From NCBI GenBank assembly GCA_013178225.1, contig JABLXE010000003.1, forward strand, positions 248,001-312,000: a stretch of 64,000 bases of DNA. Reading direction: 5' to 3'. A program made the position numbers and the translations under genes. The DNA comes from Methanotrichaceae archaeon. GTDB lineage: Archaea > Halobacteriota > Methanosarcinia > Methanotrichales > Methanotrichaceae. Below, one piece after another: positions 37,535-42,807 of this stretch (positions are counted from its first letter, which is position 1; each line of letters starts with the position of its first letter). The notes beneath the pieces were generated by a model. That model searched no databases and was not told the origin of the DNA. It saw nothing but the letters and a program-made list of their open reading frames with translations.

Positions 37535-38350
37535 ATGCCGAAAAAATCTATTAAACATAAGGGAGAAATGGGCTATTTAATGTTTGAATTTCTTTTTCTG
37601 CCCTTTTACCTGGTGATTCTGATCCTGATACTGGCCGTTCCGATAATATTTATATACCTTTTTTTGCGCCTATCCGAAACCGCGTTTGAGCAGGTGGGTT
37701 TCGATCACTGGCACGCGTCTTTGGCCGTATTCGGGTCCGTTTTAGGAAGCCTGGTAGACATACCCTTGAGCACAGTTCCAGTTTCAGCCTATCCGCAGTG
37801 GTACGTCCTTTTAGCCAGTTACCTATCTCAGAATTTCTCCGTCCAGTTTCATCCCGTCTACCTGGCGGTAAACGTCGGAGGCTGCATAATTCCCCTGGCC
37901 ATTTCCACCCATCTGCTGATCCGGGGCCAGGCCTCCGCAAAAAAGGCCCTTCTAGGGATTATCATCGTTGCCGTGATAACTTATTCTGTTGCCATGCCCG
38001 TTCCGCGCGAGGGCATAACCCTGCCCTTCTGGATCTCGCCACTTCTGGCCGCCTTATGCGGCCTAATCCTGGCCGGGGGCTATCGAGGGGCAGCGCCGCT
38101 GGCGTACATCAGCGGCACGCTGGGCACCCTTCTGGGCGCAGATATTCTGATGCTGCTCACCCCCGGCGTTCTTCCGCTGCTCTCGCCGCTGCAGGCCCAG
38201 ATGAAGCCCCTGGTACTATCCATCGGTGGAGCAGGCGTGTTTGACGGCATATTCCTGACCGGAATTATGGCCGTTCTCCTGGCAGCGGGAATAGTCTGTC
38301 TCTTCCGCGGCTCCTGCGAGGAGGTCTCAAAAAGCCAGCCCAGAAAATAG
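37535..38350 (+). CDS. DUF1614 integral membrane protein
   Basis: This 271-residue polytopic membrane protein has about seven or eight hydrophobic segments, beginning FLFLPFYLVILILILAVPII. It shows the DUF1614 features: FDHWHASLAVFGSVLGSLVD, SLVDIPL, VNVGGCIIPLAISTHLL and GTLLGADIL. The conserved glycine/asparagine and charged residues within helices suggest transport or a membrane enzyme, but the family has no known function. The first Met is followed by a basic stretch; an internal Met (GEMGYLMFEF) could be the true start. The upstream 265 bases are AT-rich and hold its promoter. Confidence 0.83.
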   Translation: MPKKSIKHKGEMGYLMFEFLFLPFYLVILILILAVPIIFIYLFLRLSETAFEQVGFDHWHASLAVFGSVLGSLVDIPLSTVPVSAYPQWYVLLASYLSQNFSVQFHPVYLAVNVGGCIIPLAISTHLLIRGQASAKKALLGIIIVAVITYSVAMPVPREGITLPFWISPLLAALCGLILAGGYRGAAPLAYISGTLGTLLGADILMLLTPGVLPLLSPLQAQMKPLVLSIGGAGVFDGIFLTGIMAVLLAAGIVCLFRGSCEEVSKSQPRK

Positions 38351-38464: not shown

Positions 38465-38707
38465 TCAAATGGTCACTCCTATCAGATTAAGGGCTATTAC
38501 CAGCACTGCCCCCAGCACCCCGCCAAGCGCGCAGATGATTATCACCAGCCAGCTATATCCGATCCCCAGTCCGGCAAATGTATTGGCCAGGAAGAGAATT
38601 AACAATCCCACCACGGCATTAATGGCAAAGTTTTTGAGGGAGCGGAGAACCAGGACAGCCCCAAATATGATTACGATTATAAGCAGCAACAGGCCTAGCT
38701 CGATCAT
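38465..38707 (-). CDS. BofA-family (pro-sigmaK processing inhibitor-like) membrane protein
   Basis: This 80-residue protein has three hydrophobic helices, beginning MIELGLLLLIIVIIFGAVLV. It carries the BofA family pattern LRSLKNFAINAVVGLLILFL (loop with conserved Lys/Asn) and a glycine-rich last helix (WLVIIICALGGVLGAVLVIA). BofA in Bacillus regulates an intramembrane protease during sporulation, but archaeal members have no known role. It starts 39 bases after the stop of the large symporter-like sensor on the same strand and could be the fourth gene of that operon. Confidence 0.85.
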   Translation of the reverse strand: MIELGLLLLIIVIIFGAVLVLRSLKNFAINAVVGLLILFLANTFAGLGIGYSWLVIIICALGGVLGAVLVIALNLIGVTI

Positions 38708-38746
38708 GGCCTATAGCTATGGAAAAATCTCCTATTAAAAGGATCT

Positions 38747-41700
38747 TCAGACCTCAAAGGGCTCAAGCTCGCTCTTGAGCCTGTGAAGCTCTTTGGTGTC
38801 CAGCGACAGGGGATCGATATGAACCAGCATTATGGCATCTTTTATGGCTATTTCATCCCTCTGAGATTGGATGAACCTGAGCACAGTCTCATAGTTGCTC
38901 TGAGTTATCAGATAGCCTAAACCCTCCAGCAGGATGACCGGGTAGTTGGCCCGGCTCAGGAACTCGGAGATCATGCTGGACAGCCGGGGGAAGTTGGTCG
39001 GATCGACCGTTCGAAATCCCGGCTCGCTCTTCTGGGTGAGCCAGATGACCGTCTTCTGGGAGATGCCGTAGCGCTCGAAAAGGGTATCGGGATTGTAGCG
39101 GCTGATGCAAAGGCCATCCATGCCGTGGTTTACCAGCTCAGCGTAAAGCTCCATGCTCTTGCTGGGCTTGGTCTCCTCCACCACGTAAGTCGTCCCTGGA
39201 ACCAACAAGACCTCATAGCGGCTCCGTCCGTAGCTCTTCATCAGGTTTGCCACCGATGCACCAAGATCGAACTCCTGGTCGTGCTTCTTGATGATCCGGG
39301 CCAGCCTTCTAATCGCCACGAAGAAGGCACGACGGCTGAGCACAATGCTCGCGTCCACTCTGAGGTTTGGCGAGGGAGACCTCACGGCATCTCGCATATC
39401 GGGCTCACAGCTGGCCTCTGGAGATTCATCAGACGGCCGCTTCTGTCCTGCCTCTTCGAAGAAGCCGCCGGCGGAGATCAGGTCATTAGCCTCATCGATG
39501 ACGTCTCTCTTTACGGCCTCGTCGAGCCGGGAGAGCATGGTCTGTGAGAAGACCGAGAATAGATAGTAAGACAGCGGTCCCAGAGTAAATATCAGCTCTC
39601 TGGCCTCGGCAATTTCGCCCTTTAGATCGATGTGCACGAATTCGTGTCGCTCCGCCAGAACGAGCCTGGATTTGCGGGCTAAGAGCTCAATTTCGTAGAC
39701 GAAGTCCAGCACCTCTTTTTCCGGAACCAGGGTCTGATTGGCTTTCACCAGCATCTCGATATTGTCCAGCAGCACCAGGCTGTTCTTGCTGGATTCGACG
39801 AATGATTTCAAAGTCATAAACAAGAGCGGCAGGTTGGTTGGAGAGATATAATGATCCTTTCCCCGCTCCCGGCCGAGCACGATTATCGGAGTTTCCTTAA
39901 AACCCCATCTGCTGCGAACTTCATCCGGGTCCAGATGAGTGACGCACAGCCCCTCTACACCATGAGTTATCTGATCGGTGAATACCTCATACCCTTTCTC
40001 CGGAACTATGAAGATATGTCCGGGTGGCAGATCGTATGTAGCCTCTGTGGCTACAGCCGCTTCAACTACCGGCCTCACAGGAACGCTATCCTCAACGATC
40101 ATCCTGGTGGTCGATGAGCCCACCGAACCGGTCAGGACCCTCTCGAACGCGTTCCACAGTTCTAAAAGCTGCTTGCCATCGATCGTCTCCCGGTCGGTGC
40201 CGAGACGGGCCAGTTCCGCATCCACCAGAAATGTCGCCCTGTCCTGGCCCACGTAAAGTGCCAGGGTTGACTCAAGCTCTGCCACGGTTCCCATTTGAGC
40301 GATGCTCATTTTGGCCGGTTTCAAAGACTTCCCTTGATAGATGTCCACGAAGGCTTCTGCCTGGGCTTCTTCTTCCGGGCTGGGCTTATACAGGAGCGAG
40401 ACCAGCACGAAGAGGCTGGCGTTGACCAGAAGGCTCCAGAATAAAGAGTGCGTCCATATGTCCAGCTGCGAGCCTAAGAGGGCGGTGGGCTTGAAAACCG
40501 TGAGGCCGGCCGGCCCGTTCTTCACCAGACCCTCGTAAAGCCAGCTTCCCTCGCTGGCCAGTGCCGGTATTAATGCCGTGTAAATCCAGAGGAATAGTCC
40601 CGAGACCAGTCCGGCCACAGCTCCCAGACGGTTGCCTTTCTTCCAGTAGAGGCCGCCTAAAGCCGCAGGCGCAAGCTGACTTACAGCCAGGAAGGAGACA
40701 ATGCCGATCGATGCCAGGATGTCGTAGGCCACCAGGCGGGAATAGAGGTAGCCGAGCATCACCACCAGGAGTATGTTGAGCCGCTTCATATTGATGAGGG
40801 TAGCCGGAAGGTTCTTTCCCTTACCGATTTTTCTCAGCAGGTACGGCAGCTCCAGGTTGTTGAGCATCATTCCTCCGACGGCCACGGACTCGACCATTAT
40901 CATGGCGGTTGCGGCAGAAAAGCCGCCTATAAAGACCAGACCGGCCAGCAGGTTCTGACCGTGACTCTCGGGAATGGATATTACGTAGGCATCCGCCAGC
41001 CCGGGAGTCTTCAAGAGGACGCCAGCAAAGGCAATGGCCGGGACGAACAGGTTTATGAGCAGCATGTAGAGGGGAAAGAGCCACATGGCCTTTTTCAGCT
41101 GTTTTTCTTCGGCGTTCTCCACCACGGTGACGTGGAACTGTCTGGGGAGAAGAAGCACTGCGAAGAAGGATATGAGGGTGAGCGAGAACCACAGGGTGAA
41201 ATCCACATCTGTCAGCTCCAGATATTGGGGAGCTTGAGATATCTGGTCCAGGATTACATGGTATCCTCCGAACATTCCATAGACCACGTAGACTCCCACC
41301 AGCAGAAAAGCCGCCAGCTTCACCACCGACTCGAAGGCCACGACGAGGATCAGGCCCTCGTGGTGCTCCATCGGGTCCATGTGTCTGGCCCCGAAAATTA
41401 CCGCGAAGACCCCCAGGAGCAGGGCCACGATCAACCTGCGCGTTCCGTCGACTCCGAACAGCAATGTGTGTCCGGATAGAACATCCAGTGAGATGGATAT
41501 GGCTATAAGCTGCAGTGCCACGTAGGGTGTGACCATGACCAGGCTCAGAACCGCAACCAGTGCGCCGATTACGTAGCTGCTTCCATACCGATAGCTTATG
41601 AAATCGCTAATCGAGCACAGACGGTACTCTTTTGAGACACGAATCATTTTCCTGATCAGGACCCAGCCCAAGGTCATGGCCAGGACAGGACCGATGTAAA

Positions 41701-41914
41701 TGGGCAAGAACTCGAGGCCGGTCGTGGCCGCCCGGCCTATGGAACCGTAATACGTCCAGGCGCTGACGTAGACGCATAGAGATAAAGCATAAACATAAGG
41801 GTTTTGCACAATGCTCCGGCCTTCCAGCCCGCGACGGACGGCATACTGAGCTATTCCGAACAGGAGCAAAAGATACAGCACCATCACGACGATTGCGAGC
41901 TGCGGGCTGATCAA
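38747..41914 (-). CDS. Solute:sodium symporter-like sensor with STAC-like region and two DUF835 domains
   Basis: This 1055-residue protein starts with an SLC5/SSS transporter-like membrane domain of about 12-13 helices (residues 1-500), including ALSLCVYVSAWTYYGSIGRA and AGLVFIGGFSAATAMIMVES. Residues about 520-610 match the STAC linker known from CbrA-type sensor kinases (EAFVDIYQGKS then AFERVLTGSVGSSTTRMIVE). No histidine-kinase domain follows. Instead there are two DUF835 domains (about 620-765 and 900-1055). Each has a GLC(V/I)(T/S) strand after a GYEVF- or TYVVEE-type start and an LLD/LLEG Walker-B-like strand (VLLDNIEMLVKANQTL, VILLEGLGYLITQSNY). The start overlaps the stop of the small membrane protein by 4 bases. 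The inferred role is a substrate-responsive membrane sensor. Confidence 0.88.
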   Translation of the reverse strand: MISPQLAIVVMVLYLLLLFGIAQYAVRRGLEGRSIVQNPYVYALSLCVYVSAWTYYGSIGRAATTGLEFLPIYIGPVLAMTLGWVLIRKMIRVSKEYRLCSISDFISYRYGSSYVIGALVAVLSLVMVTPYVALQLIAISISLDVLSGHTLLFGVDGTRRLIVALLLGVFAVIFGARHMDPMEHHEGLILVVAFESVVKLAAFLLVGVYVVYGMFGGYHVILDQISQAPQYLELTDVDFTLWFSLTLISFFAVLLLPRQFHVTVVENAEEKQLKKAMWLFPLYMLLINLFVPAIAFAGVLLKTPGLADAYVISIPESHGQNLLAGLVFIGGFSAATAMIMVESVAVGGMMLNNLELPYLLRKIGKGKNLPATLINMKRLNILLVVMLGYLYSRLVAYDILASIGIVSFLAVSQLAPAALGGLYWKKGNRLGAVAGLVSGLFLWIYTALIPALASEGSWLYEGLVKNGPAGLTVFKPTALLGSQLDIWTHSLFWSLLVNASLFVLVSLLYKPSPEEEAQAEAFVDIYQGKSLKPAKMSIAQMGTVAELESTLALYVGQDRATFLVDAELARLGTDRETIDGKQLLELWNAFERVLTGSVGSSTTRMIVEDSVPVRPVVEAAVATEATYDLPPGHIFIVPEKGYEVFTDQITHGVEGLCVTHLDPDEVRSRWGFKETPIIVLGRERGKDHYISPTNLPLLFMTLKSFVESSKNSLVLLDNIEMLVKANQTLVPEKEVLDFVYEIELLARKSRLVLAERHEFVHIDLKGEIAEARELIFTLGPLSYYLFSVFSQTMLSRLDEAVKRDVIDEANDLISAGGFFEEAGQKRPSDESPEASCEPDMRDAVRSPSPNLRVDASIVLSRRAFFVAIRRLARIIKKHDQEFDLGASVANLMKSYGRSRYEVLLVPGTTYVVEETKPSKSMELYAELVNHGMDGLCISRYNPDTLFERYGISQKTVIWLTQKSEPGFRTVDPTNFPRLSSMISEFLSRANYPVILLEGLGYLITQSNYETVLRFIQSQRDEIAIKDAIMLVHIDPLSLDTKELHRLKSELEPFEV

Positions 41915-42123
41915 CTCTCAGACCCCCGGTCAAACCAATATAGAATTGCTATGATCAATATCCACACTGCGCTGATATAGGCGAGAACCGTAGGGATGGA
42001 CGCTGCACTCATGCGACCTATTGCCAGGGAGAGGATGGGCCAGTTGAACAGCACTGCTCCTAGGAAGAAGAGGAGAATCCAGAACTCGTCCTGCGAGAAT
42101 AGATCTTTTGGGGAGAGTGCCAT
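41911..42123 (-). CDS. Small two-helix membrane protein, likely accessory subunit of the symporter-like sensor
   Basis: This 70-residue protein has two hydrophobic helices (FWILLFFLGAVLFNWPILSL and TVLAYISAVWILIIAILYWF) with a short polar loop and an acidic tail. It lies between a KaiC-like ATPase gene (3 bases) and the symporter-like sensor (4-base overlap). SSS transporters and CbrA-type sensors in bacteria are often encoded with such short two-helix partners (DUF485, DUF3311 and DUF4212 types), and this is taken as an archaeal counterpart. The sequence itself is too short to assign a family with confidence. Confidence 0.78.
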   Translation of the reverse strand: MALSPKDLFSQDEFWILLFFLGAVLFNWPILSLAIGRMSAASIPTVLAYISAVWILIIAILYWFDRGSES

Positions 42124-42126
42124 GTT

Positions 42127-42807
42127 CTAGAGACCTGGGTATACGGTTAGTCCTTTGGAAGATATATCTAATGCATATTTGCCCAGATGATGAGCGGTCC
42201 CGCTCATCTTCAGGACTTCTATCGACCGCCTGCGAAGCAGGTTGACCTCGGCGTTCTGGAGCAGGATAATCCCATCAGCCACCTGGGCAATCTCCACCGG
42301 GTAGGGCCTTTCCGGGATAGAGTCGCCTGTGACCAGGGCTACGGCTTTGTAGTCTTTTATCAGATGGGATAGCCTCAAGAGAAAGCGCCTGTAGTTTTCG
42401 GAGAACAGGTCCAACAAGACCGAGAGGCAGTCTATCACCACCCTTCTCGGACGATGCCTTTCCATTTCCAGTTCAATGATCTTTAGAACCTCATCAGAGT
42501 TTGTCGGCTGCTCCAGAACAACTTCCAGGTCTGAGAATACGATGTCCTTTCCAAAGTACTTGCTGTCGGCGAAATCGTAGGTGGCGATGAACTTTAAGAC
42601 GCATTCAGGTGACCCGCCAAGAGTCAGGAAGCAGAGCCCGCGCTCGCCGAGCTGTGCACCTTTGAATAGGAACTGGCTGCAGAAAGTGGTCTTTCCGGAG
42701 CCCACATCCCCTGCCACCAGGATCAGAGATGGGACCGGCAGCCCTCCTTCGAGCATCTCGTCCAGACCCGGAATTCCGATTGGAGCTCTATCTATCAAGC
42801 AGATCAT
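42127..42807 (-). CDS. KaiC/RadA-like RecA-superfamily ATPase
   Basis: This 226-residue single-domain ATPase has the GvpD/KaiC/Rad55-like archaeal form: RAPIGIPGLDEMLEGGLPVP at the start, Walker A AGDVGSGKTTFCSQFLFKG near residue 32, and Walker B RRVVIDCLSVLL near residue 120. A C-terminal segment (RRRSIEVLKMSGTAHHLGKY) matches the KaiC pattern RRxLxVLKMRGTxH. The KaiC phosphorylation-site pair is not obvious. As first gene of the operon with the small membrane protein and the SSS-STAC-DUF835 sensor, it is probably the soluble output or regulatory ATPase of that system. This is inference from context. Confidence 0.88.
   Translation of the reverse strand: MICLIDRAPIGIPGLDEMLEGGLPVPSLILVAGDVGSGKTTFCSQFLFKGAQLGERGLCFLTLGGSPECVLKFIATYDFADSKYFGKDIVFSDLEVVLEQPTNSDEVLKIIELEMERHRPRRVVIDCLSVLLDLFSENYRRFLLRLSHLIKDYKAVALVTGDSIPERPYPVEIAQVADGIILLQNAEVNLLRRRSIEVLKMSGTAHHLGKYALDISSKGLTVYPGL

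Follow-up and report, generated by a model that had tools for sequence, protein, structure and literature searches.

A bacterial-type CbrX-SLC5-STAC unit joined to a DUF835 pair in Methanotrichaceae, and its candidate KaiC-like output

Transporter-linked sensors and the Methanotrichaceae locus

Among the described relatives of the system presented here is the Pseudomonas sensor CbrA, whose small companion CbrX is encoded directly 5' of cbrA in an overlapping frame and remains attached to the SLC5 domain of the sensor in the published structure (PMC13022988, PMC6591292). Residue K196 of CbrA fills the Na2 site of this transporter-like domain, and it has been proposed to couple transport to protons (PMC13022988). 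As for the archaea, STAC-containing signalling proteins were stated to be absent from them in 2017 by the same group that had described the STAC domain (PMC5715377), and putative kinases containing an SSS domain occur in a few of them, such as Nitrosocaldus (reviewed in PMC7918813).

The window analysed in this work comprises 64,000 nucleotides of contig JABLXE010000003.1 of a Methanotrichaceae archaeon. Between positions 38465 and 42807 the four ORFs of interest lie on the minus strand and are transcribed in the order KaiC-like ATPase, 70-residue membrane protein, 1055-residue sensor and BofA-like protein. The KaiC-like ATPase (P0002, 226 aa, 42127..42807, minus strand) is recognized by PF06745 (7.8e-37), and a gap of only 3 bases separates its gene from that of a CbrX-like membrane protein with two helixes (P0003, 70 aa, 41911..42123, minus strand). 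The stop of the latter overlaps by 4 bases with the TTG start of the sensor (P0001, 1055 aa, 38747..41914, minus strand), an arrangement that suggests translational coupling of both genes. A sequence-only reading of this DNA had described three tightly linked genes with a BofA-like one downstream, and the ORFs and spacings were as it gave them. A core role of the BofA-like small membrane protein (P0004, 80 aa, 38465..38707, minus strand; PF07441, 5.3e-8) was rejected because this co-oriented neighbour is found 3' of the sensor in only 15 out of 20 loci read (not found at L059, L071-L073 and L077), and it is probably external to the core. In one relative (L074:4523-4905) the BofA-like gene seems to be tandemly duplicated 3' of the sensor. 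A DUF1614 membrane protein on the plus strand of the window (37535-38350) converges with the BofA-like gene, and lies near it in several relatives as well.

The membrane unit and its DUF835 output

Residues 8-613 of the sensor match the CbrA chain solved by cryo-EM (10ed_A, E=3.5e-77), a match that covers both the SLC5 and the STAC domains. The sodium/solute symporter-like SLC5 domain (residues 1-510, 40385..41914, minus strand) is not called as SSF by Pfam in this protein, and the corresponding part of the predicted model finds its fold matches in the structures of NIS, SGLT1 and SMCT1. Regarding the STAC domain (residues 543-611, 40082..40288, minus strand), 71 bacterial STAC domains were combined into a profile that matched the whole sensor with E=3.9e-10 and the stretch 543-611 with 1.1e-8, whereas CbrA itself scored 1.2e-5 and the best of 1000 shuffled controls 0.026. 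Such a match, far beyond both the CbrA score and the shuffles, together with the four helixes of the model that follow the last membrane helix (544-555, 557-570, 580-595 and 601-607), indicates that the STAC domain is real, in agreement with the linker anticipated from the sequence alone. The full-length model reached a moderate confidence (pLDDT 74, pTM 0.49), and the relative placement of the domains is consequently left without a claim.

A closer look at the solute pocket shows that K199 of the sensor occupies the position of K196 in CbrA and is invariant across all the relatives examined, and that residues Y49, W53, F69, Y73 and F408 are identical in both proteins. The differences with CbrA concern S53, which is S or T, A56, mostly replaced by T, and F248, replaced by S. 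The conserved lysine and pocket suggest that the protein may bind a solute and take it up in a proton-coupled manner. As the pocket residues are shared by nearly all the bacterial relatives, they do not reveal the ligand, and the attempt to deduce its identity from them was rejected.

The tiny membrane protein encoded upstream, previously regarded as a new component, turned out to belong to a known class of partners of SLC5-STAC proteins. A two-helix protein is encoded directly upstream in most of 74 bacterial SLC5-STAC loci, and a profile made from 20 of these bacterial proteins, CbrX itself excluded, matched P0003 with 2.1e-14, above all of 2000 shuffles. The same profile recognized the 17 Methanotrichaceae homologues tested (17/17), well above 2000 shuffles, and a homologue precedes the sensor in each of the 20 loci read (in L061 seen by its reading frame), so that no loss was found. 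A phmmer search of P0003 against the PDB gave no match. On the basis of the profile, P0003 is best described as a CbrX-type subunit, and its connection with CbrX comes from position, size, topology and the bacterial relatives.

At the C-terminal side, Pfam detects neither HisKA nor HATPase in the sensor, but two DUF835 stretches in their place (1.9e-50): domain 1 (about residues 634-815, 39470..40015, minus strand; PF05763, 7.2e-13) and domain 2 (about residues 861-1055, 38750..39334, minus strand; PF05763, 1.1e-37). The CbrA match, the fold and Pfam thus bear out the earlier description of an SLC5-STAC protein with a DUF835 pair where the kinase would be. The bypass of phosphorelay that it also proposed holds for the protein itself; beyond the protein, such a bypass would be conjectural. 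The predicted model of the pair (pLDDT 86, pTM 0.83) found KaiC structures as its top PDB matches, with probability 1.00 and both domains aligned, although global TM-scores stayed at ~0.25 because the relative orientation of the domains differs from that of KaiC. A motif scan of the pair in the window found no Walker A, and the model is consistent with a degenerate KaiC-like tandem devoid of this motif, which agrees with the proposal of DUF835 as an inactivated KaiC (PMC5847659). At the sequence level, a DUF835 profile gave no match among PDB sequences, and its profile-profile comparison with the linked KaiC family, based on shallow alignments, was not significant. Domain 2 is the most conserved part of the sensor, with a mean identity to P0001 of 73.5% in comparison with 66.8% for SLC5, which favours the existence of a dedicated partner surface.

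In ten bacterial relatives scanned, the output following STAC was a histidine kinase in eight, a GAF-SpoIIE module in one and a GGDEF-EAL module in another, indicating that swapping of outputs is normal for the SLC5-STAC input. The two exceptions are a deltaproteobacterial protein with a GAF-SpoIIE phosphatase (L087:7918-9216) and one of Pseudomonas tumuqii with GGDEF-EAL (L120:7006-8283).

Distribution, ancestry and the linked KaiC-like ATPase

A search for the complete architecture, as suggested by the sequence-only reading, found a full-length orthologue in 49 of 50 Methanotrichaceae genomes covering all 11 genera, three of the 49 being fragments in incomplete assemblies. These orthologues are single copy and 57-70% identical. 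Among 394 Halobacteriota genomes no full-length match was found outside Methanotrichaceae, where only DUF835 matches were obtained. A STAC protein is thus near-universal in this family, in contrast with the stated absence of such proteins from archaea (PMC5715377). The best 74 non-Methanotrichaceae loci of the genome scan were all bacterial (39-46% identity), and the closest relatives among the matches listed were bacterial SLC5-STAC kinases, with those of Nitrospirota as the nearest ones. In a tree of SLC5-STAC sequences, Methanotrichaceae form a single clade (support 1.0) placed beside Nitrospirota (0.83). The simplest reading, with moderate support, is that an ancestor of Methanotrichaceae probably took up the CbrX-SLC5-STAC unit from bacteria.

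The linked KaiC-like protein has matches among KaiC chains of the PDB down to 2.4e-45. Its nearest relatives are KaiC domains, and the GvpD-type identity formerly considered for it was not supported. The protein keeps a Walker A (GDVGSGKT, residues 33-40), while the FEES of KaiC aligns with LGGS, the pair of glutamates being replaced by GG; in its orthologues this position reads GG, SE or GH. With the Walker A kept and the glutamates substituted, P0002 may bind ATP and hydrolyse it poorly.

Linkage with the sensor was found conserved in the relatives, where the sensor persists in nearly all the genomes and is accompanied by its P0003-type gene, but the KaiC neighbour followed this pattern only in part. 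The linked gene is present in 29 of 50 Methanotrichaceae genomes (19/33 of those of high quality) and adjoins the sensor gene in 27 of the 27 genomes with both on one contig, while in the remaining two a contig end or a stretch of absent sequence interrupts the locus. On the other hand, it is missing from 21 of the 50, including 14 of the 33 of high quality, where the sensor is intact. Mapped on the sensor tree, the linked KaiC is ancestral and was lost about seven times, some of these losses being possibly assembly gaps, and in 7 of the 20 loci read directly aspS adjoins the P0003-type gene without KaiC between them. Where present, the gene is under purifying selection (dN/dS ~0.03-0.2). In one genome (L058:10426-11035, G001) the KaiC-like gene is split over two frames near the Walker A, possibly through decay or an assembly error.

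With the sensor intact in so many genomes lacking it, the role of obligatory partner was rejected for the linked KaiC, which is instead an accessory. The earlier idea that solute binding is signalled to this very ATPase thus keeps its ancestral and linked candidate, but it does not stand as a general rule. As DUF835 is equally conserved in genomes devoid of the linked gene, the case for this KaiC as the necessary output is weakened. Other KaiC-like ATPases are retained in the genomes that lack it. In a second operon of the genome to which the window belongs (L002:272-3241, contig C5 of G000), a PAS histidine kinase, a second DUF835 protein, a PadR-like regulator and a KaiC-like ATPase are encoded, and in all seven sampled genomes having a second DUF835 protein (7/7) its gene and a KaiC gene are separated by about 1 kb. 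The repeated vicinity in both operons indicates that DUF835 and KaiC are evolutionarily associated, even if the KaiC of the sensor operon is itself accessory.

A proposed mechanism and its place among known systems

Somewhat above even chances, in our view, an ancestor of Methanothrix acquired a bacterial CbrX-SLC5-STAC transceptor, which came to be connected to an inactive-KaiC output acting through contact with KaiC-like proteins. The CbrX-type peptide and SLC5 would make up the membrane part, which would bind a small solute and perhaps carry it by proton coupling, like CbrA. Beneath the transporter, STAC would sense the conformation of SLC5 and pass the solute-dependent state to the DUF835 pair, a nucleotide-dead tandem that would replace the kinase and act most likely by protein contact: depending on the state of the transporter, it would recruit, cap or release KaiC-like ATPases together with their clients. 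The co-encoded KaiC-like protein would be the ancestral partner, and in lineages deprived of it another cellular KaiC-like ATPase, or a different partner, may stand in. The fusion with archaeal DUF835 domains would have followed the acquisition from bacteria. In Pseudomonas, CbrA signalling persists without SLC5, and deletion of STAC or CbrX has a limited effect (PMC6591292, PMC7096432, PMC5715377, PMC13022988), so the coupling of solute to output may be weak.

It is possible, though rather unlikely, that the protein is mainly a transporter, with STAC and the DUF835 pair as a regulatory tail through which KaiC or the energy state gates uptake and no signal is sent outwards. The complete SLC5 fold and its pocket with a proton-coupling lysine are what such a transporter would need, STAC lies against the transporter base in CbrA (PMC13022988) and was proposed to control the flow of solute, and a KaiC-like partner that binds ATP could report the energy charge; however, the closest relatives listed are sensors with signalling outputs, and the higher conservation of DUF835 domain 2 compared with the transporter favours a dedicated partner surface. 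A doubtful option is a mixed KaiC-type ring of active and dead domains, formed by the linked KaiC-like protein with the DUF835 pair, in which two dead positions supplied by the membrane protein would switch the ATPase activity. The KaiC-like fold of the tandem and the presence of neighbouring DUF835 and KaiC genes in each of two distinct operons agree with such a ring, but the linked ATPase of the Methanotrichaceae clade lacks the KaiC glutamates and is dispensable. Finally, the idea that a bacterial symporter gene and an archaeal DUF835 gene were fused by chance or by the assembly, with no special function, is hardly conceivable, since it has the mixed ancestry and nothing more in its favour and is already refuted by a full-length architecture repeated in 49/50 genomes and 11 genera, with the operon and overlap conserved and the P0003-type gene upstream in 20/20 loci.

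Methanotrichaceae (the Methanothrix family) are obligate acetate methanogens, a way of life that makes acetate an attractive candidate ligand. A more specific form of the favoured transceptor reading, which we hold as unlikely in its entirety, is that a transceptor for acetate or a related carboxylate reports substrate supply into the archaeal KaiC-like network without phosphorelay, the kinase having been swapped for a dead KaiC tandem; if true, it would represent a new class of transporter-coupled signalling. A gene of 633-635 aa behind the Nitrospirota sensors, taken by its length for an acetyl-CoA synthetase, was discarded as such because it encodes a CBS-DUF294 nucleotidyltransferase, and hence offers no direct link to acetate. 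Downstream of the SLC5-STAC kinase, L089 and L149 (both checked with Pfam) and L109 carry a sigma-54 response regulator and this cNMP-CBS-DUF294 nucleotidyltransferase, and L109 also a DnaQ-like exonuclease.

With this operon, SLC5-STAC proteins gain a further non-kinase output and DUF835 a membrane input, and it illustrates how a sensor of bacterial type can be connected to archaeal signalling components. Two poorly understood subjects, the STAC/CbrX transceptors and the KaiC-like networks of archaea, meet here in a single testable operon, where about seven natural losses of KaiC provide a built-in comparison for the contacts of DUF835.

No precedent for a CbrX-SLC5-STAC unit with a double DUF835 output was found in the literature consulted on SLC5-STAC systems, nor was DUF835 with a transporter input in that consulted on archaeal DUF835 proteins. 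With CbrX-CbrA of Pseudomonas (10ed, PMC13022988) the system shares the SLC5 domain of 13 helixes, STAC, the lysine at the Na2 site, most pocket residues and the small two-helix peptide encoded directly upstream with an overlap. Unlike CbrA (SLC5-STAC-PAS-HisKA-HATPase), it lacks PAS, HisKA and HATPase in favour of two DUF835 domains, its operon has no CbrB-like regulator, the identity over SLC5-STAC is 33%, and F248 of the CbrA pocket is a serine. The Nitrospirota histidine kinases of the SLC5-STAC type (L088, L089, L098, L109 and L149) are closer (~41-46% identity, the closest branch listed), and the CbrX-like gene found upstream of them shares the FNWP segment, but they end in PAS-HisKA-HATPase, and in most cases a sigma-54 response regulator comes next. 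Compared by their descriptions, CrbS/MxtR and RpuS, which respond to acetate and pyruvate (PMC5715377, PMC9100948), follow the same SLC5-STAC logic with small carboxylates, whereas they are hybrid histidine kinases with LuxR-type regulators. As to the archaeal KaiC-like hubs (Makarova et al. 2017), insofar as they are outlined in PMC5847659, they also have a KaiC-like ATPase beside a sensor, although the one linked here is dispensable and without the KaiC glutamates. The archaeal REC-DUF835 and REC-PAS-DUF835 proteins (PMC5847659) are soluble and take their inputs from REC and PAS, in contrast with the membrane unit described here, with which they share the DUF835 output proposed to be an inactive KaiC.
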